A stretch of DNA of 59,466 nt from a bacterium (lineage in GTDB: Bacteria > NPL-UPA2 > JAUVJM01). The DNA lies in NCBI GenBank assembly GCA_030606215.1, contig JAUWGW010000009.1, positions 1-59,466 on the forward strand, read 5' to 3'. Made by a program: the position numbers and the translations under genes. The notes under the pieces were generated by a model that worked only from the letters and a program-made list of their open reading frames with translations, was not told the DNA's origin and did not search any database. Shown here in pieces: positions 1-9,127 of the stretch (positions are counted from its first letter, which is position 1; every line of letters starts with the position of its first letter).

Positions 1-988
1 TTGCACTGTAAACATTATTATTTTGGCTTGTTCTAAACCATGCTGAAATCGTAAAGTCTTCTGTTCCAAGATTCAAACTGCTGTCACTCCCACAACCAAC
101 ATAATCATTACCTCCATCAAAAGAACCGCAGTGGGTACCGAATTTGCCGGGAGATACTGTATTTGCTCCTCCATAGGCAGTGCCGTGATTGCCCTGACCG
201 GATGAATCAATTACCTCAAAAAGTGTTCCATCCCAAGAATCCTCATCCATATGGTAGAGAGCTACAAGATATAAGTAGTATTGTGCTTTTATCTCCTCCT
301 CAGATAAAGCCCGGTTGTATATCTTCACCTCATCAATGAGACCGTTGAAATATCTAGTACCAACTGCCCATCTAAGTCTTCCTATCTCTACACTATCGGG
401 TATATCATCCCACACAGTGGGAGGAGTCCCTGCTGAGGAACTACTGGTCGGCAAATCTACTCCGTCCCTATAAAGTTTTATATTCAAAGGATTAAGTTCT
501 ACAACAGCTGATATGTGATGCCAATTTCCTACCCAATCATCAAAAGACCCAGAGGCAACTGTAACATAATTATTACCACCAGGATCTCTTGCATGAAGGC
601 TGAAGCTATCATCAGAATAAAAACGAAATTCGAAGATAGCATTCCCAGATACGCCTTTACTAACAAGTCCAACTGTTCCGCTATTGCTACCGCCAGATTT
701 TACCCACATAGAAATTGTCATATTTGAAGATGAACCATCAAACGGATTATCCATGTCTCCAACATCAACATACTTGTTGTTTCCATAAGAGCCACAGCGA
801 CCAACTTTACCATCGGCAAACCCTATACCACCATGTCCTGTTCCATTATTACCATTGCCGCTTGAATCATCCCAGTTATCCTCCATCTTCCAGTAGCCGA
901 CAAGACCGGTTTCTGCTCCTGCTGATGAAATAGTCAGAAAGGAAATTATTAGAGAAGCAGAAATTATAATAAGTTTTGTGTTTTTCAT
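1..988 (-). CDS. Secreted LamG-domain protein, 3' part cut by the window edge
   Basis: Reading the minus strand from the ATG at 988 gives an open frame to base 1 (329 complete codons). It starts with MKNTKLIIISASLIISFLTI and an AGAE stretch, a Sec signal peptide with likely cleavage near residue 25. Two LamG/concanavalin-like units follow. The first begins GLVGYWKMEDNWDDSSGNGN and closes with the family signature LIDEVKIYNRALSEEEI. The second starts at about residue 220 (LVALYHMDEDSWDG) and is cut by the edge. LamG units are beta-sandwich carbohydrate- or protein-binding folds in surface proteins. The start is 12 bases after the stop of the LamG pseudopilin, so the two are probably co-transcribed. 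I see no clear Shine-Dalgarno sequence. Binding target unknown. Confidence 0.85.
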   Translation of the reverse strand, partial: MKNTKLIIISASLIISFLTISSAGAETGLVGYWKMEDNWDDSSGNGNNGTGHGGIGFADGKVGRCGSYGNNKYVDVGDMDNPFDGSSSNMTISMWVKSGGSNSGTVGLVSKGVSGNAIFEFRFYSDDSFSLHARDPGGNNYVTVASGSFDDWVGNWHHISAVVELNPLNIKLYRDGVDLPTSSSSAGTPPTVWDDIPDSVEIGRLRWAVGTRYFNGLIDEVKIYNRALSEEEIKAQYYLYLVALYHMDEDSWDGTLFEVIDSSGQGNHGTAYGGANTVSPGKFGTHCGSFDGGNDYVGCGSDSSLNLGTEDFTISAWFRTSQNNNVYSA

Positions 989-1000
989 TTTGAATTTTTA

Positions 1001-2869
1001 TTATGGATGTTCAAGTCCAACATAATCCCTTTCCCAGATTGTGTCATCATAGGTTCCCGTAAAATCATCTTTTTTTGAATCAGTAAAGCCAAAAGCTGCT
1101 TCTTTTATCTCTTCTCCAGATAGAGCCCGGTTATATATTTTTACTTCGTCGATGAGGCCGTCAAAGTACTGTCTTGGAGTGCTATGATAATATCTCCCTA
1201 TCTCCAAAGCACCTCCGGTAGATAAGGCAACTTCGTCATTAGTAACTCCGTTCACTTCTCCATCAATATATATCTTCCAACTCGTCCCATCAAAAGTCCC
1301 TGCAATATGATACCAATGATCAGAATACATCCTATCATTTGAGCCAACTCCATGCCATGAACTGCCATCATAATGTCTAAAATAGGCTTTTGCGTCTGTC
1401 CCTATGGAAAAAACAAAATCAATGTTTGTACTATTTTGTGGACTTTTACACAAGATTTTGCCACCATGGTATAAATTAACATTTACCCATGCCATCACTG
1501 TTACCTTATTAACATCTAAACTTGAAACACTCCCAACATCAACATAATCATTGTTGCCATCAAAATACCCACAGCGACCGATTTTACCACTGGCTACTGT
1601 GTTTGCTCCATTTTTGGCTGTGCCATGATTATTATTTCCTGATGAGTCAATTACTTCACCAGCAGTGCCATTCCAGAAATACTCATTCATTTTCCAGTAG
1701 CCGACTAAACCACCTTCCTCTTCTGCCTCCCCGGGTAGTTCTTTCCTTAAGGTAATAGTATTTTTTAAACTGAATTTCTGAGTATCTTTTTTAAGTCCTA
1801 ACAGAATCTTAACTATTTTGATACTGTTACGTTTTGCCTGGGTGCTGGTATCAGTTACCTCATCATAATCTTCATCATAGTAGTTTACAACAAAGGTATC
1901 AGTATTGCATTCATGAACCAGTTGATGGCTGATTCCATTGACTTCCAAAGTTGGTTTATCTACAGGATTGCCCTGCCAAAAGATTCTTGTTCTGCGGACA
2001 TCATTGGAAACACGCACCTCATCTATCACTCCCTCAAAGGGATACTGGTTATTGGTGCCGTCGTAGCCAATGCAAAGGTTATCTGATGAGGTGGCAATGA
2101 AATTGGTGTGATTAGCGGTGGCAACATTATGTCCATTTATGTACAATTTTAGCTCTTCTCCTGTTTCCTCATCCTTATCGTATGTAAGAGCAGTATGAGC
2201 CCATGTGCTGCTGTTTCTCTGGACAGTCCGATTACTTATAATATCGTGCCAGTCACAGGAATAGTAAATACCCCCTACTAAATAACCACTGTCGTTAAGG
2301 TAAAGCCGATAGGCGGCGTGCATATAGATTATAGCCCCGCTGCCGCTTACGCCGGAATCAGGCTGGAGCCATGCTTCAAGTGTTAGCTTATCGCTGATTC
2401 TGAGGGTAGCGCCATTGCCGCAATCTACATAATCATCATTACCGTCAAATCTCAACGCATCTTTGCTCTCGCCATTATCATTGCCAACCCATGCAGGCTC
2501 GCCGGAAGCTTTCAAAGTCCCGTTATTTGTCCCTGTCTCATCGTTAGCAGTTGTTCCACTTCCTTCGTCAAAATGCCAGAGAGAGATAGTATAACCATCC
2601 ACTTCAGGAGCGGCGAGAGCTAAAGGGGTAAACACCACGCTTTTATCCCCTGCATAGTAGATACTGCCTGCTTTCTTGAGCTGACGTTCAATTTTATTCA
2701 TTGCAATAGTCGCTTCCTGGTGAAGTAGCAGTTTTGGGTCTTTTACCTTCCAATCGCGCAGAGCTCCTGTAAATATAATGGCAACAGCCGCTATCATGAA
2801 TGAAGCTATAACCATAGAGAGGAGCATTTCAAGAAGCGTTAGTCCCTTAGAAGAGTTATGAGTCCACAT
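1001..2869 (-). CDS. PilW/GspJ-type pseudopilin fused to two LamG domains
   Basis: I place the start at 2869 because AAAGGAG lies ten bases upstream and the protein then begins MWTHNSSKGLTLLEMLLSMV, a type III prepilin leader with the cleavage Gly before Leu and Glu at mature position 5. The hydrophobic helix (about residues 9-32) is followed by a short pilin-like helix. A first LamG unit (about 86-293) ends IDEVRVSNDVR, and a second (about 385-585) ends LIDEVKIYNRALSGEEI. Pseudopilins of this class are usually about 200 residues; this one is 622. It overlaps the upstream pseudopilin by 31 bases. It is likely a minor tip pseudopilin displaying carbohydrate- or protein-binding modules. Fusion is seen; tip placement and ligand are inferred. 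Confidence 0.85.
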   Translation of the reverse strand: MWTHNSSKGLTLLEMLLSMVIASFMIAAVAIIFTGALRDWKVKDPKLLLHQEATIAMNKIERQLKKAGSIYYAGDKSVVFTPLALAAPEVDGYTISLWHFDEGSGTTANDETGTNNGTLKASGEPAWVGNDNGESKDALRFDGNDDYVDCGNGATLRISDKLTLEAWLQPDSGVSGSGAIIYMHAAYRLYLNDSGYLVGGIYYSCDWHDIISNRTVQRNSSTWAHTALTYDKDEETGEELKLYINGHNVATANHTNFIATSSDNLCIGYDGTNNQYPFEGVIDEVRVSNDVRRTRIFWQGNPVDKPTLEVNGISHQLVHECNTDTFVVNYYDEDYDEVTDTSTQAKRNSIKIVKILLGLKKDTQKFSLKNTITLRKELPGEAEEEGGLVGYWKMNEYFWNGTAGEVIDSSGNNNHGTAKNGANTVASGKIGRCGYFDGNNDYVDVGSVSSLDVNKVTVMAWVNVNLYHGGKILCKSPQNSTNIDFVFSIGTDAKAYFRHYDGSSWHGVGSNDRMYSDHWYHIAGTFDGTSWKIYIDGEVNGVTNDEVALSTGGALEIGRYYHSTPRQYFDGLIDEVKIYNRALSGEEIKEAAFGFTDSKKDDFTGTYDDTIWERDYVGLEHP

Positions 2870-3309
2870 AAAATGGATGCTCCTTTCTCCTGCCAGAAAA
2901 CAGTAACCTGGACTTTTTTGTAGGTATCTATACCTCCTGCCCATTCAACCTGAGTAACTCTGTCAACAGTGCCGGGCAGACCAAGCTTTTTCTCAGGAGT
3001 AAGGTCTAATTCAGTGAGGTAGAGATTATCATCAAGGTATGAAACGGTATGTTCTACTACATTGGAAAGGGAAGAACCATTGAAGGAATAAGCGCCGGTT
3101 CCTTCATCAATAGTTATTCCATTTTGAACAAGATGTCTTATATCTTCTATTCTCTCCTGCGCAAGATTGGTTGCAATAGCCAGATTCTCAGCGCTTTCGC
3201 TTCCCCTGCTAACCACGGAAAACATCTCAATTATGGCAATTAGCGCAAACCCAACTATTACAGTTGCAATTAGCACCTCAACGAGAGAAAAACCCTTCTC
3301 TCTTCTCAC
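2839..3309 (-). CDS. Minor pseudopilin, GspI/PilV type
   Basis: The 156-residue protein begins MRREKGFSLVEVLIATVIVG, a class III prepilin signal with the cleavage Gly, then FSLVE with Glu at mature position 5, and a long hydrophobic helix. A GTG start is chosen because AGGAGGG lies nine bases upstream; the nearby ATG is out of frame and meets a stop at once. The C-terminal part is short and pilin-like, with no LamG domain. It lies between the GspG-like gene and the LamG pseudopilin and overlaps the latter by 31 bases, so translation is probably coupled. Expected role: minor subunit initiating or capping the pseudopilus in the inner membrane. Assignment to GspI rather than PilV is not certain. 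Confidence 0.8.
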   Translation of the reverse strand: MRREKGFSLVEVLIATVIVGFALIAIIEMFSVVSRGSESAENLAIATNLAQERIEDIRHLVQNGITIDEGTGAYSFNGSSLSNVVEHTVSYLDDNLYLTELDLTPEKKLGLPGTVDRVTQVEWAGGIDTYKKVQVTVFWQEKGASILCGLITLLRD

Positions 3310-3370: not shown

Positions 3371-3820
3371 TTAGCCGCCGTGGTTATACTCTTTGCAGTT
3401 ACTTACCCAGATGTCATCACCAGGAGCGTCGCCGCCAGTTACTGTGTCAGTCCCTGCTGTGAGAGGTTTTGCATTACCATCAGGTCCAACGCTGTAAATG
3501 ACATAATATGCATTGGTCCCATCAGTGTCGTAACCGTAGTCGCCGGTGCCGAATGGGTCAGTGGGAACCTCATCCACTAATCTATTTGTCTCTGATGTCA
3601 AAGCGTCCTCAATCTTGCCGTCTTCAGGTGTTTGTCCATTGTTGATAGCGTAGGCTTCCACTGCTGTCTTTAGAGTGTGCAGATCGGCTTTAACAGCTTT
3701 CGTCTTAGCTTCTGTAGAATAATCGGTTGCCCTCATCACGAGGATAGCCGACAGAAAGCCAATTATGACCATCACTAACAGCATCTCAATCAGTGTAAAG
3801 CCCTTGTTGTTTCTTACCAT
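3371..3820 (-). CDS. Major pseudopilin-like protein, GspG type
   Basis: It begins MVRNNKGFTLIEMLLVMVII, a textbook prepilin leader with cleavage after Gly7 and Glu at mature position 5. Then come an N-terminal amphipathic helix, the GspG-style motif AYAINNGQTPE, and PTDPFGTGDYGYDTDGTNAY, which matches the calcium-binding region of major type II secretion pseudopilins. Length (149) is typical of GspG. A strong GGAGGAGG sequence precedes the ATG. Expected role: main subunit of the pseudopilus fibre after processing by a prepilin peptidase, which is not in this window. It sits downstream of gspF-like and a second short pseudopilin in one operon. Confidence 0.85.
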   Translation of the reverse strand: MVRNNKGFTLIEMLLVMVIIGFLSAILVMRATDYSTEAKTKAVKADLHTLKTAVEAYAINNGQTPEDGKIEDALTSETNRLVDEVPTDPFGTGDYGYDTDGTNAYYVIYSVGPDGNAKPLTAGTDTVTGGDAPGDDIWVSNCKEYNHGG

Positions 3821-3839: not shown

Positions 3840-4196
3840 TTAATCTCCCCTTTGAGCCCCCTTTACTAAATGACAATCATACACTTTCCCGTTTACCGGG
3901 TCATAGATGTATCTCTTTCCAAAGGGGTCTATGGGATAGTTTTCCTCATCTACCGAAGAAATTGCTTCTGAGTTTAAAGCCTTCATACTCAGGCAGCGAA
4001 TGTCTGGTGGGAAAACTCCATAGCGCAGATTGTATGCCTGAATAGTTACCTGTAGATTCCTTAACTCTGCTTTCATCAACACCTCTCTCGCGTGAGAAAT
4101 AGTTGACTGACACTGCTCCAGCACGACAAAGATAATCGTTCCAATCAGAGCAGTAGCTAATATAAGTCCAATGACACTAAAACCATTGCTTTTCAC
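3840..4196 (-). CDS. Short pseudopilin-like protein lacking Glu5
   Basis: The 118-residue product starts at a GTG with MKSNGFSVIGLILATALIG. If it is cleaved after Gly5, position 5 of the mature protein is Gly and not the Glu found in the three other pseudopilins here. The rest has a helix and GspG-like pieces (IQAYNLRYGVFPPD, then YPIDPFGKRYIYDP) that match the calcium-loop region of major pseudopilins. It lies between gspF-like and gspG-like genes with a ten-base gap upstream. GspK is the known pseudopilin lacking Glu5, but this protein is far shorter and looks like a GspG derivative. Function unknown; membership in the apparatus is inferred from leader and position. Confidence 0.7.
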   Translation of the reverse strand: MKSNGFSVIGLILATALIGTIIFVVLEQCQSTISHAREVLMKAELRNLQVTIQAYNLRYGVFPPDIRCLSMKALNSEAISSVDEENYPIDPFGKRYIYDPVNGKVYDCHLVKGAQRGD

Positions 4197-4206
4197 GAAC
4201 CGAGAA

Positions 4207-5421
4207 CTATTTCATCACCTTCATCATATTAAATATGGGCAAATATATTGATAAAGCAATGAAAGCGATAGCTCCAGCCATCATAATAACAAGCACAGGT
4301 TCAAGAATAGTCGTAAGATTCTTAATTGCATAATCCACCTGCTTATCATAATCATCAGCAACGTTTTTAAAAGCATCTTCCAGCCTTCCTGTTTTTTCAC
4401 CAACACCTATCATCCTAACAGTCATGAGAGGAAACTCCCCTGTCTCCTTAAGCGGGGTTGTAATAGTTTCTCCTTCTCTGACAGCAGTTTCTACTTCACT
4501 CATTGCTTTCTTGAAGACCATATTCCCTGCACTTTCTGCGGCAATGTGCAGAGACAGCAGAATATTGACGCCGCTTCTTCCTAATATTTCCAGCGAGCGG
4601 CTTATGCGCGAGATAGTTATCTTACGGACAAGTGTTCCAAAAAGCGGAAGATTAAGCTTGAAATGGTCAAATCTCATCCTGCCTGACGGATTGCTGATGT
4701 ATATAATCGCACCTATAATAAAAATTACAACTCCGCCTATGATAAAATACCATTCTGATCTGAGGAAAGATGAAAGCCACAATAATAATTTTGTGGGGAC
4801 AGGTAGCTGCACGTTTGCTTTTGTAAAAACATAGGCAAATTTTGGAAAGACAAATGTCACAAGGAATATGATGACAGAAATTCCTGTGAATACCAGTACT
4901 AATGGATACATTGTCCCCGATTTGATTTGCGCTCTCAAGTCTACTTCCTTCTCGAGAAAATGAGCAAGCTGGTCAAGAACTTCCTCCAACCGTCCGCTTT
5001 CTTCCCCCACTCTTAATGTATTGATAAATAGTGAAGAAAAAGTCTGAGGTTGTTTTCTTAGAGCATCAGATAGGGAAATTCCCTCTTCCATATCTCTTTT
5101 CGCCTGGATGAGAACCTGCTGAAGCTTTTTATTTTCACTCTGTTCTATCAGAATGTCAAAAGTCTGAAGAACAGTCAATCCGGACCGAAGCATTGTTGCT
5201 AATTGTCTTGCAAACTGACTGATATCAGTCTTGCTTGCTTTTTGGAATCTGATAAAGATGTCTTCTTGAAAATGAGGATGGGTTCGTTCCTGTGAAACAC
5301 TTGAGACAAAATAACCCAACTGGCTAAGTTTTTCCATTAAATCACTTTCATCAGGAGCTTCTAATGTCCCTTCTACTATTTCACCTGTTTCTTTTCTTCC
5401 TTTATATCTGTAAACGGGCAT
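4207..5421 (-). CDS. gspF: Type II secretion / type IV pilus inner-membrane platform protein
   Basis: A 404-residue GspF/PilC-family protein. The N-terminus MPVYRYKGRKETGEIVEGTL is typical of the family. Two T2SSF repeats follow (about 70-190 and 270-400), each a helical bundle with FARQLATMLRSG and ISRSLEILGRSG signatures, and three transmembrane segments lie near residues 172-195, 225-245 and 372-398. The conserved GEESGRLEEVL and GEKTGRLEDAF motifs occur in both repeats. It would couple the cytoplasmic ATPase to pseudopilin assembly. It follows the ATPase by 11 bases. Whether the system is secretion or pilus cannot be told, because no secretin, GspC or PilM-type gene is in view. Confidence 0.9.
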   Translation of the reverse strand: MPVYRYKGRKETGEIVEGTLEAPDESDLMEKLSQLGYFVSSVSQERTHPHFQEDIFIRFQKASKTDISQFARQLATMLRSGLTVLQTFDILIEQSENKKLQQVLIQAKRDMEEGISLSDALRKQPQTFSSLFINTLRVGEESGRLEEVLDQLAHFLEKEVDLRAQIKSGTMYPLVLVFTGISVIIFLVTFVFPKFAYVFTKANVQLPVPTKLLLWLSSFLRSEWYFIIGGVVIFIIGAIIYISNPSGRMRFDHFKLNLPLFGTLVRKITISRISRSLEILGRSGVNILLSLHIAAESAGNMVFKKAMSEVETAVREGETITTPLKETGEFPLMTVRMIGVGEKTGRLEDAFKNVADDYDKQVDYAIKNLTTILEPVLVIMMAGAIAFIALSIYLPIFNMMKVMK

Positions 5422-5432
5422 TTTTATTGTCC

Positions 5433-7103
5433 CTAATCCTGTGTAACCCGCAGGATTTCCTCAACAGTGGTTTTGCCACTGCGAACAAACTGCAGTCCTG
5501 CCTCCCGCAGAGTCATCATACCGGCACGCTGTGCGGCTTGATGAATAACTAAAGGAGTGGATTTGGCAACAATCAGAGTTTGGAGTTCTTGTCCTGGAAT
5601 CATTAGCTCAAATATGCCTGTTCTGCCTTTGTAACCTGTGTCACCACAATTCTGGCAGCCTTTGCCTTTATAAAACTTCGTCTCTGCATCTAAGCCAAGG
5701 GTTTTTAGAAGCTCCTCTTTCGGTTTATAAAGTTCTTTACAGTGAGGGCAGATAAGGCGAACCAGTCTCTGCGCCAATGCGCCAATGATTGAAGAGGACA
5801 CTAAAAAAGGTTCAATTCCCATATCTATAAGTCTTGTTACAGCGCCGGGAGCATCGTTTGTATGAAGTGTGCTAAGTACGAGATGTCCCGTAAGTGCTGA
5901 TTGGATAGATATTTTAGCCGTTTCTAAATCCCTTATCTCTCCTACCATTATCACATCAGGGTCTTGCCTGAGGATATTGCGAAGCCCCGTTGCAAATGTC
6001 CATCCTGCTCTGGGATTAATCTGGGATTGATTAAGACCGCTTAGCTGGTATTCTACGGGGTCTTCAATGGTAGTTATGTTTATTTCCGTTGTCCTTATCT
6101 TGCTAAGAGCCGCATAAAGTGTGGTTGTCTTGCCGGAGCCAGTAGGCCCTGTGACAAGAATGATACCGTGTGCATGGCTGATAAGAGATTCAAACTTTTT
6201 CAAGGTGTCAGGTAAAAATCCAAGTTCAGCCAAACTATATTTAGCGCTGCCTTTGTAGAGAAGACGGAGAACAACTTTTTCCCCTCGTATTGTAGGAAAT
6301 GTAGCTACTCTCATGTCCATTTCTTTGCCTTCAGCCTTGAATTCAATATGACCGTCCTGTGGAATCCTTTTCTCAGCAATATTCATCCCTGCTAAAATCT
6401 TGATTCTGGAGACAATCAACGGATGAAGGTGAAGTGGGAGTTGAAGATTTTCATGCAAAACTCCGTCAATCCTGTAACGAACTTTCAGAATATTCTCGTC
6501 CGGCTCAATATGAATATCGCTTGCCCTATCGGTGATTGCCTGTGAGATAATCATGTCAACTGCTCTTATTACAGGGGCTTTTTCAGTTACTTCTATCTCC
6601 GGCCCGCTGATTACTGATGGTTCTCTCCCTATGCTTATGTTCCCTACTATATCGTGGATAGTATCAGTAACACGGTAATGACGTTCAATTGCTTCTCTTA
6701 TGCTTGTTTCAGTGCTTATCACAGCTTCAACAATAAAGCCGGTTTCGGACTGTATTCTGTCGATAATTTCCAGATTCATTGGGTCAGCCATTGCGACAGT
6801 GAGGGTATTGTCAATTCTGAAAAGTGGTATAAGACAGTGCTGGCGGCAAATGTTTTCACTGACAAGATGTGCGATTTTGGAGTCAATAACGTAGTTAGAA
6901 AGCTCCACTCTCGGTATGCGAAGCTGGGAACTCAATTCTTCCGCAAGAGTTTCCTCTTTTATAAAACCGAGACGAACCAGGCTCTGCCCCAAAAACTCGT
7001 CCTTTTCTTTCTGCCTTTCAATAGCTTCGCTGAGCTGCTCTTTAGTTATCAGGCCTTTTCCAGCCAGAATCTCCCCTAACCTTTTTCTTTTCACCTCAGC
7101 CAT
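5433..7103 (-). CDS. gspE: GspE/PilB-family assembly ATPase
   Basis: A 556-residue secretion/pilus ATPase. The N-terminal part (about 5-140) is an MshEN/GspE-N region starting RLGEILAGKGLITKEQL. The ATPase core has ASDIHIEP, Walker A GPTGSGKTTTLYAAL (near 315), the Asp box with TTIEDPVEYQL, Walker B DPDVIMVGEIRD and the His box STLHTNDAPGA. A zinc-binding tetracysteine (CPHC near 449 and CQNC near 483) and KGRTGIFELM close the protein, as in GspE and PilB. It would power pseudopilin polymerisation from the cytoplasm. MshEN domains often bind cyclic di-GMP; the degenerate GGDEF-like tail of the upstream kinase makes that worth noting, but binding here is not shown. Confidence 0.92.
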   Translation of the reverse strand: MAEVKRKRLGEILAGKGLITKEQLSEAIERQKEKDEFLGQSLVRLGFIKEETLAEELSSQLRIPRVELSNYVIDSKIAHLVSENICRQHCLIPLFRIDNTLTVAMADPMNLEIIDRIQSETGFIVEAVISTETSIREAIERHYRVTDTIHDIVGNISIGREPSVISGPEIEVTEKAPVIRAVDMIISQAITDRASDIHIEPDENILKVRYRIDGVLHENLQLPLHLHPLIVSRIKILAGMNIAEKRIPQDGHIEFKAEGKEMDMRVATFPTIRGEKVVLRLLYKGSAKYSLAELGFLPDTLKKFESLISHAHGIILVTGPTGSGKTTTLYAALSKIRTTEINITTIEDPVEYQLSGLNQSQINPRAGWTFATGLRNILRQDPDVIMVGEIRDLETAKISIQSALTGHLVLSTLHTNDAPGAVTRLIDMGIEPFLVSSSIIGALAQRLVRLICPHCKELYKPKEELLKTLGLDAETKFYKGKGCQNCGDTGYKGRTGIFELMIPGQELQTLIVAKSTPLVIHQAAQRAGMMTLREAGLQFVRSGKTTVEEILRVTQD

Positions 7104-7160: not shown

Positions 7161-7559
7161 TTACTCCTTTCCTGTACACCTCCTGCGGGCGAGAAAGAGT
7201 TGACGCTCAACCTCACGCAGAAGTTCGTCTGTTATGTATGGTTTAGTGACATATGCATCAGCTCCTGCTTCAATCCCCAGGAGCTTATCTTCTGTCTGGT
7301 CTTTTACCGTAAGCATAACTATTGGGATATCTCTATATCTTCTATTTTTCTTTAACCGGCGACAAACTTCATACCCATCCATTCCAGGCAGTATTAAATC
7401 AAGGATAATGAGATCCGGTCTCAGTTTTTGTATTTTCTTCAGAGCAGTTTCTCCGGTGGGGGCAGTTATCACCTTGAGTTCTTTTGAAGTTAGCCGGCGT
7501 TCTAATGTTTCTAAAATACCTAAATCATCGTCTATGAGGAGAATCTGCCCTTTTGCCAT
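7161..7559 (-). CDS. Single-domain response regulator
   Basis: A receiver-only protein of 132 residues from the start at 7559, chosen because GGAGGGG lies just upstream and the product then begins MAKGQILLIDDD. It has the acidic pair near residues 10-11, the phospho-acceptor Asp54 in LIILDLILPGMDG, the Thr in VMLTVKD and the Lys in YVTKPY. No output domain is present, so it would act by protein contact. Candidate partners are the adjacent ATPase or the kinase, though this is inferred from position. It starts two bases after the stop of the preceding receiver gene and lies 57 bases before the GspE-like gene. Confidence 0.88.
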   Translation of the reverse strand: MAKGQILLIDDDLGILETLERRLTSKELKVITAPTGETALKKIQKLRPDLIILDLILPGMDGYEVCRRLKKNRRYRDIPIVMLTVKDQTEDKLLGIEAGADAYVTKPYITDELLREVERQLFLARRRCTGKE

Positions 7560-7560
7560 T

Positions 7561-7953
7561 TTACTCCCCTCCGGAAATATTTTTCTCAATTGTGGAGAGC
7601 AAATCATCCGATTCAAAAGGTTTTGTGAGATATCCCACTGCGCCCAATGCAGTGGCCTTATTGCCGAAATCCTCAGGGAAGGGGGAAGAAGCGGTAAATA
7701 TGATTATCGGTATTTCTCTTGTCTCTTCACAAGCTTTCAATCTCCTGCAAACTTCATAGCCGTCAAGTTCCGGCATCACGAGGTCAAGCAAAATTAAGTC
7801 AGGTTTAAAAGAGGTTGCTTTCTCAATTCCTTCTTTACCGTTTGCAGCAGTGATAACCTCATAGTTATTGGCTTCCAGGCGACGCATGGAAACAAGGAGA
7901 ATTGCCGGCTCATCATCTATTATCAATATCTTTTTCTTATCCACTGTGTCCAC
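7561..7953 (-). CDS. Single-domain response regulator
   Basis: A 130-residue CheY-like receiver with no output domain. Visible residues are IIDDEP near 11-16, the phospho-acceptor Asp57 in LILLDLVMPELDG, Thr in IIIFTAS and Lys in YLTKPFE. It overlaps the 3' end of the kinase gene by 17 bases, so the two are likely translationally coupled and cognate. It is similar in plan to the next receiver but is not a recent copy, since many positions differ. It probably carries the phosphoryl group between the kinase and a machine component or a second regulator. Confidence 0.88.
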   Translation of the reverse strand: MDTVDKKKILIIDDEPAILLVSMRRLEANNYEVITAANGKEGIEKATSFKPDLILLDLVMPELDGYEVCRRLKACEETREIPIIIFTASSPFPEDFGNKATALGAVGYLTKPFESDDLLSTIEKNISGGE

Positions 7954-9127
7954 TTATTATTTCTTCAACCTTCCTCAACAATTCTTGTCCACTACTCCCG
8001 TCATCAGGATAGATGACACTCCACTCGCGAATATCTAAGTCACTGGCGAATTCGTGCTCTTTGATAACTCCATCTACTCTATCTTCTATTGCAGATACTT
8101 TATCCTTATCCACTTCATTAAAAATAATAACCACTCCATCATCCCCGTATTCACTTGCCAGGTCATATGGATAGCGAATAACGCTATTCAGGACATTTTG
8201 CAATTCTCTTAAAAATTCACCCCTTTTCTCCACACTGTAGATTTCTTTAAGGCTGCTTGCTTTTACAACGAGGAGCATTATCACCGGCTTTTTGAATTCC
8301 TGTTTCTTTTCTGTATCTTTTGCTCTTTCAATTTCGTCATTCAGATGTTCGGCGGAGAAGAGAGGTATTCCGTATTTTGGAATTGCAAAGGTGAAGTTAC
8401 TTCCTTCACCTAATTTGCTTCTTACACCAATTTTCCCTCCCTGTAGCTCTACCAACTCTTTAGTTATAGCCAGTCCTAAACCGGCCCCGCCTGGCGCACC
8501 AGTGCTGGAACTCAAGAGACTAAACTCATTAAAGATTTTATCCAGATTCTCAGATGCAATGCCGCATCCGGTATCAGCGATTGTAACTTTAATGCATTCA
8601 TCTTCCTCTTCTACCTTAATAGAGACCGCGCCTTCTTCAGGAGTAAATTTGATAGCATTATTCACAATGTTAGTTAGAATCTGGGTTATCTTATCGTGGT
8701 CAGCGTAAGCTGTCGGCAGATGGAGAGGCAAATCCGATTTCAAGCTGATTCTTTTTTTATTTGCCTCAGCCTGCATTTCCTTACGAACCTTATCTACTAT
8801 AAAATGAATGCTTATGGGTCTTTTTCTTATTTCTATTGCCCCTCTATGTATGCGTGAGATATCAAGGAGTTCTTTTACCAGTCGTGATAGTCTCTTTGCC
8901 TCGCCCCGTGCCAGAGCGAGAAAATCTTCCTGTTCCTTATTTATCTTTCCGAGTGTTCCATCCAGAAGAAGAGAAAGTGCTTCGATAATTGAAGTGAGTG
9001 GAGTGCGAAGTTCGTGGGAGATATGTCCGATAAATGCGCGTCTGTTCTTTTCTACCCTGGTTAATTCGAGGTTTGCTTTCCTCAACTCAGTATTGAGCTC
9101 TTTAAGCTGGTCTTCCAGTTTTTTCAT
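7937..9127 (-). CDS. Soluble histidine kinase with a degenerate GGDEF-like C-terminal domain
   Basis: The 396-residue protein has no transmembrane segment or recognisable sensor. It starts with a coiled coil (about 1-30), then the H box FIGHISHELRTPL (His38), the N box NIVNNAIKFTP, G1 ADTGCGIA and G2 GGAGLGLAI. After the catalytic domain (ending near 252) comes a tail of about 140 residues whose pattern follows a GGDEF fold (IMLLVVKASSL, ASEYGDDGVVIIF, SVIYPDDGSSGQELL). GDDGV stands where GGDEF would be, so cyclase activity is unlikely. It is the first gene of the secretion operon and has its own promoter upstream. Input could be protein contact through the coiled coil. Confidence 0.88.
   Translation of the reverse strand: MKKLEDQLKELNTELRKANLELTRVEKNRRAFIGHISHELRTPLTSIIEALSLLLDGTLGKINKEQEDFLALARGEAKRLSRLVKELLDISRIHRGAIEIRKRPISIHFIVDKVRKEMQAEANKKRISLKSDLPLHLPTAYADHDKITQILTNIVNNAIKFTPEEGAVSIKVEEEDECIKVTIADTGCGIASENLDKIFNEFSLLSSSTGAPGGAGLGLAITKELVELQGGKIGVRSKLGEGSNFTFAIPKYGIPLFSAEHLNDEIERAKDTEKKQEFKKPVIMLLVVKASSLKEIYSVEKRGEFLRELQNVLNSVIRYPYDLASEYGDDGVVIIFNEVDKDKVSAIEDRVDGVIKEHEFASDLDIREWSVIYPDDGSSGQELLRKVEEIISGHSG

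Follow-up and report, generated by a model that had tools for sequence, protein, structure and literature searches.

Type IV pilins that carry additional domains (modular pilins) are an established class, for which 264 architectures are listed according to the text of a survey by Raynaud 2021 (PMC8179133). The same text names Laminin_G_3 (PF13385) among the domains of the 15 commonest architectures and includes PilB of Streptococcus sanguinis as a precedent. PilC of this species is a pilin-lectin whose binding to glycans was shown experimentally (PMC9934059), and in ComZ and GspK a domain is inserted in the pilin fold (PMC6561018). The gene analyzed here encodes a protein of 622 amino acids, designated LamG-pilin in the following. 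It lies on the minus strand (2869..1001) of a stretch of 59,466 nucleotides (the window; NCBI assembly GCA_030606215.1, contig JAUWGW010000009.1) with which contig C2 of a draft genome (1.52 Mb, 93% complete) of the bacterial lineage NPL-UPA2 begins. The protein combines a prepilin leader with two LamG domains, one of which appears to be inserted in a pilin head of the PilW/GspJ type while the other is appended.

Domain layout and integrity of the LamG-pilin gene

The LamG-pilin is read in a single frame without internal stop codon. Its N-terminus, MWTHNSSKG/LTLLEMLLSM (the slash marks the predicted cleavage site), has a Glu at +5 and is recognized by the Pfam model N_methyl (residues 5-29, E 3e-5, 23.9 bits, cut-off 21.2). 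Laminin_G_3 was matched twice (Pfam, E 6e-49). With two such domains in one open reading frame (ORF), the protein has extra domains that are not peculiar to pili, a feature by which modular type IV pilins are recognized (PMC8179133). A sequence-only reading of the window had proposed that a leader and two concanavalin-like LamG units are fused in one protein, and this fusion is real since the ORF is intact and contains N_methyl as well as both Laminin_G_3 domains. The pilin part had been thought to precede both units, an order that applies to LamG2, which is appended, but not to LamG1, which seems to lie within the pilin head, the pilin sequence resuming between the two.

This layout emerged from a PilW/GspJ profile hidden Markov model (HMM) of plain minor pilins from the genome of the window and from other genomes, comprising eight sequences at first and 29 later. 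Its members were picked by motif and gene order; the curated NCBIfam equivalogs match the LamG-pilin only below their cut-offs. Two separate matches collinear with the 29-sequence profile were obtained, residues 4-72 (profile positions 2-70, 50.2 bits) and residues 296-377 (positions 118-199, 13 bits in context). Scored alone, the second piece reached 17.4 bits while the best of 5,000 shuffles gave 9.5. With the smaller profile, it scored 15.0 bits versus 12.5 for the best of 3,000 shuffles, and the LamG windows of the same length that were scored did not exceed 2.8 bits. The match to the PilW/GspJ (J) family hence extends across helix and head. As PilW/GspJ-type sequence is present on both flanks of LamG1, the head is split: judged by these alignments, LamG1 is inserted after the helix and the first strand of a PilW/GspJ-type head, the head resumes, and LamG2 and a tail of 30 residues follow. 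By its sequence, the protein can be classified as a putative minor pilin of modular build whose type is that of PilW/GspJ, the J subunit. LamG1 and LamG2 are 29% identical and do not represent a recent tandem copy. An assignment to the TafC family of fimbrial proteins (NCBIfam NF052521) was rejected, since the score was 75 bits with a curated cut-off of 410 and the best stretch fell into the LamG1 region.

AlphaFold2 (AF2) was run on residues 1-393 with 33 aligned LamG relatives and on the full-length protein with a LamG-only alignment. In the first run, LamG1 formed a confident jelly-roll (~92-290, predicted local distance difference test (pLDDT) mostly 80-95), and in the second run LamG2 did so too (pLDDT mostly 85-98). 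Pilin helices were predicted at residues 12-37 and 45-66. The top Foldseek matches of the LamG1 model were concanavalin-like domains, e.g. domain 4 of AbnA (5hon_A, TM 0.71 by target), and a CBM40 (6er3_A) was among the matches; both of these bind carbohydrates. The model places LamG1 in the concanavalin-like superfamily, a relation at the level of the fold that names no ligand. For LamG2, sequence matches in the PDB were 4qvs_A (E 2.5e-8) and 5hon_A (E 8e-5).

The longest ORF at the locus begins 25 codons further upstream, at 2944. The start at 2869 is preferred because a probable ribosome-binding site, AGGAG, precedes its ATG with a spacing of 10 nt and because the prepilin leader then is N-terminal. 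At its start the gene shares 31 nt with the PilV/GspI-like gene before it, and 12 nt separate its end from the next start codon. A frameshift or separate genes for leader and LamG part, which the sequence-only reading had itself named as the critical objection, were ruled out by the one frame, the absence of an internal stop and the AGGAG at the start; in addition, the end of LamG2 and the tail are kept in G001, the sole genome of the same family. It is also highly improbable that distinct pilin and LamG genes were merged via repeats during assembly. LamG sequences do break assemblies, as the window starts within a LamG gene and a contig of G001 ends within LamG2 of the pilin, but the best genomic DNA matches of the region are confined to 70% over ~165 nt or 81-82% over 51-57 nt, and since there is no long nucleotide repeat, a repeat-driven misjoin is unlikely. 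Such a merger is further contradicted by the single frame with its ribosome-binding site, by the pilin half-domains on both flanks of LamG1 and by G001, where LamG2 and the tail are likewise followed by a LamG-repeat gene.

Table 1. Features of the LamG-pilin gene, its operon and related fusion genes (positions in the window unless a locus is given; slash, predicted cleavage site)
Feature	Position	Strand	Residues	Evidence or remark
Class III leader MWTHNSSKG/LTLLE, N-terminal pilin helix (residues 12-66), start of pilin head	2597..2869	-	1-91	Pfam N_methyl; PilW/GspJ HMM; AF2
LamG1, putatively within pilin head	1970..2596	-	~92-300	Laminin_G_3; AF2 jelly-roll; Foldseek
PilW/GspJ-like pilin head, second half	1691..1969	-	301-393	PilW/GspJ HMM
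LamG2, appended	1094..1690	-	~394-592	Laminin_G_3; AF2 jelly-roll; PDB sequence matches
Short tail GFxDSxxxDF...GTYxDTxWxxDxVxLxxP	1004..1093	-	593-622	kept in G001 ortholog
Stop codon of LamG-pilin gene	1001-1003	-		
Probable ribosome-binding site AGGAG for ATG at 2869	2880..2884	-		read from sequence
Secreted protein with at least two LamG domains, cut by contig start	1..988	-		Laminin_G_3 3.5e-29; signal peptide by eye; no prepilin motif
PilV/GspI-like minor pilin	2839..3309	-		N_methyl; NCBIfam type_IV_pilV 8e-9, gspI 6e-5, both below cut-off
GspG-like (major-type) pilin	3371..3820	-		T2SSG 1.8e-9; typeII_sec_gspG 6.7e-19, below cut-off
Short second GspG-like pilin, MKSNG/FSVIG, without Glu at +5	3840..4196	-		T2SSG 6e-4, just below cut-off
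PilC/GspF platform protein	4207..5421	-		T2SSF 4e-58
PilB/GspE extension ATPase, N-terminal MshEN (cyclic di-GMP type)	5433..7103	-		T2SSE 3e-140; MshEN 2e-22
Pilin-LamG fusion, 309 aa (genome of the window, contig C16)	L021 2028-2957	-		
Pilin-LamG fusion, 289 aa (genome G006, contig C16)	L170 1787-2656	+		

Operon, related genes and type of machinery

The genes on the minus strand are arranged in the order PilB, PilC, two GspG-like pilins, PilV/GspI-like pilin, LamG-pilin and secreted LamG protein (Table 1). The LamG-pilin occupies the PilW/GspJ slot behind the PilV/GspI-type gene; in sister systems of the phylum an I gene is also followed by a J gene, and their PilW/GspJ proteins are ordinary (~170-240 aa). 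No Pfam match to a PilY1 propeller was obtained in the sequenced part (1..988) of the secreted LamG protein. The short GspG-like pilin lacking Glu at +5 (3840-4196) adjoins the normal GspG-like pilin.

In G001, PilB is 78% identical to its counterpart in the window. A second contig of this genome begins inside LamG2 of the ortholog, and the last part of LamG2 together with the tail revealed 46% identity (115-column alignment). Behind LamG2 lies the same tail; the genes after it encode a LamG-repeat protein (811 aa), a weakly PilX-like protein, an ATPase of the ParA/MinD type, a fused PilM-PilN and PilO. LamG2 of the pilin and the first LamG of the neighbouring protein (L042 5699-6142 and 3358-5793, minus strand, contig C55) are 87% identical over 111 residues, which suggests, at the level of sequence, recent copying of LamG modules between the two adjoining genes.

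The search for other fusions of this type, recommended from the outset, disclosed two further ORFs with N_methyl and Laminin_G_3 in the nine genomes of the phylum compared. Both have a simpler layout, in which LamG follows soon after the pilin helix and a pilin head is not apparent. A wider search of genome contigs for the architecture of the LamG-pilin gave ten loci, none of them a close ortholog; only L036 was inspected closely, and when the loci retrieved were scanned for motif plus LamG, no pilin fusion emerged among the ten. At four other loci of the genome of the window, on contigs C6, C17, C31 and C33 (L022, L023, L024, L025), stand-alone pilin genes recur at or near genes of large LamG-containing proteins.

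The ATPase matched NCBIfam type_IV_pilB (2e-182) and an MshE-related cyclic di-GMP domain (7e-16). MshEN is present as in the mannose-sensitive haemagglutinin (MSHA) pilus, yet the genome has four ATPases with this domain, which therefore does not single out an MSHA-type pilus. Of the components of a type II secretion system (T2SS), the types E, F, G, I and J occur in the window. An ortholog of PilM-PilN was located on contig C13, adjoining a PilO-like gene and a secretin; tied to the window by the synteny of G001 only, this set is inferred to serve the operon. The protein had been labelled a type II secretion pseudopilin, a label that is not established; the machinery is at least equally compatible with a type IV pilus. 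A T2SS pseudopilus, in which the LamG domains of the J-type subunit would act in the periplasm, catching polysaccharide or secreted LamG-type proteins as cargo, and not on targets outside the cell, is deemed unlikely. It would agree with the GspG-, GspI- and GspJ-like subunits, with the numerous LamG proteins of the genome and with the fused PilM-PilN, an arrangement matching GspL/PulL (PMC10191384); moreover, the HIJK complex of the T2SS is said to contact secreted effectors directly (PMC10191384). On the other hand, the ATPase scored marginally higher as PilB than as GspE (607 vs 603 bits, both under the curated cut-offs), G001 has a PilO-family protein, the genome holds separate T2SS-like pilin sets on contigs C5 and C22, and the bulk of the two lectin-like domains is in keeping with display at the surface.

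A histidine kinase and two response regulators are encoded immediately ahead of PilB with its MshEN domain (7937-9127, 7561-7953 and 7161-7577, minus strand). At its C-terminus the kinase matches GGDEF weakly (22.0 bits against a cut-off of 23.8), and the three genes are possibly a cyclic di-GMP control unit. The plus strand from ~12,000 to 40,000 encodes an epimerase, glycosyltransferases, an AsnB-like protein and a GT-C protein of 1,415 aa with a near-cut-off AftD match, and is likely a cluster for the synthesis of glycan or exopolysaccharide. On C13, the MinD/ParA-type gene beside PilM-PilN (L088 9914-10282, minus strand) looks like a remnant of 122 aa, compared to 258 aa in G001; a truncation, a late start or an assembly fault are possible.

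Proposed role of the LamG domains

The LamG-pilin is probably a modular J/W-type minor pilin of the filament whose LamG domains are exposed, likely near the tip, and bind a glycan or another surface ligand. The one prepilin peptidase found in the genome would cleave the leader after Gly9, and the mature protein would join the filament via its N-terminal helix, alongside the PilV/GspI-like and GspG-like subunits. By analogy with PilB and PilC of S. sanguinis and ComZ of Thermus thermophilus, processing, helix-driven polymerisation and tip display of the LamG domains should be expected. LamG1 would be looped out from the sheet with LamG2 at the C-terminus, and it is the bulk of the protein that makes a position at or near the tip most likely. 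The neighbouring secreted LamG-repeat protein probably co-acts in binding, in a role like that of PilY1 or MshQ, and may be held at the tip as minor pilins hold PilY1 (PMC10191384).

The large head might also mean that the leader serves as a membrane anchor only, so that the protein would remain unpolymerised in the inner membrane, its LamG domains facing the periplasm. This is rather improbable because Glu at +5 is retained, the gene occupies the J/W slot of a filament operon, and pilin head sequence, needless for a mere anchor, is kept on both flanks of LamG1.

Several points weigh against a modular J/W-type pilin with ligand-binding LamG domains. While the structure prediction of the 622-residue product, which the sequence-only reading had called for, yielded the helices and both LamG folds, AF2 gave no confident pilin head (residues 298-384, pLDDT <50; in the run on residues 1-393, no confident fold for 317-393). 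As neither alignment contained pilin-head relatives, AF2 could not probe this part; it did not produce a discontinuous head either, so that the insertion rests on the profile evidence. For a deeper fold alignment, PilW/GspJ relatives were sought in viral contigs by two single-protein scans, and none was found there. The N-terminal half of the G001 ortholog is lost at a contig end, so conservation is seen for LamG2 and the tail only. Finally, LamG domains are common in the genome of the window (15 matches) and need not bind sugars.

A more far-reaching idea, tentative and somewhat unlikely as it stands, is that the J/W-type pilin with its inserted and terminal lectin-like domains shares LamG modules with the secreted LamG-repeat protein of the operon, both forming a joint tip that binds glycans, with modules being copied from one neighbouring gene to the other. 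If true, such copying would let the specificity of the tip change.

Comparison with known modular pilins

In the open literature, no paper on a pseudopilin with a LamG domain was found, and in open-access papers no description of a minor pilin of the J/W type that has both an inserted and an appended LamG, a weak negative as this literature was limited to open papers without the architecture dataset of PMC8179133. The novelty at first implied for a pilin-LamG fusion was too strong, since modular pilins with PF13385 (PMC8179133) and the glycan-binding PilC (PMC9934059) are known. The kind of protein is thus an established one, and the part that seems new is the inserted-plus-appended LamG layout on a J/W-type subunit. 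With the PF13385 modular pilins, the protein shares N_methyl and Laminin_G_3 in one polypeptide, a common architecture; in their usual layout, though, the pilin module is followed by the extra module, and a combination of insertion and addition is not described in the text of that survey (PMC8179133).

Like PilC of S. sanguinis, which possesses immunoglobulin (Ig) and concanavalin-like lectin modules (PMC9934059), the LamG-pilin has a class III leader, a pilin moiety and a concanavalin-like module and is encoded as a minor pilin in a type IV filament operon. By contrast, the modules of PilC are all C-terminal, behind an unusually short pilin moiety, whereas here one is inserted in the J/W head and one appended. 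ComZ is also a proposed tip subunit (PMC6561018), but its DNA-binding beta-solenoid lies between the last two strands and its nearest relative is GspK, while LamG1 is placed near the start of a J/W head. GspK, the tip pseudopilin of the T2SS, is likewise a minor subunit with a domain inserted in the pilin sheet (PMC6561018, PMC8179133); its insert is alpha-helical and the subunit is of the K type.

The operon further resembles those of the MSHA pilus (MshO/MshQ) and the type IVa pilus (PilW/PilY1), in whose gene order a J/W-type minor pilin adjoins a large secreted non-pilin protein, and it shares with MSHA an extension ATPase bearing MshEN. To our knowledge, neither MshO nor PilW has a LamG domain. 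The two-site layout widens the range of modular pilins, as it puts extra domains on a J-type subunit while the published examples of inserted domains considered here, ComZ and GspK, are GspK-like. Together with the two other fusions in this small phylum, in which LamG is joined to a pilin helix, it supports the view that uncultured bacteria equip their filaments with exchangeable binding domains, the known mechanism being unchanged.
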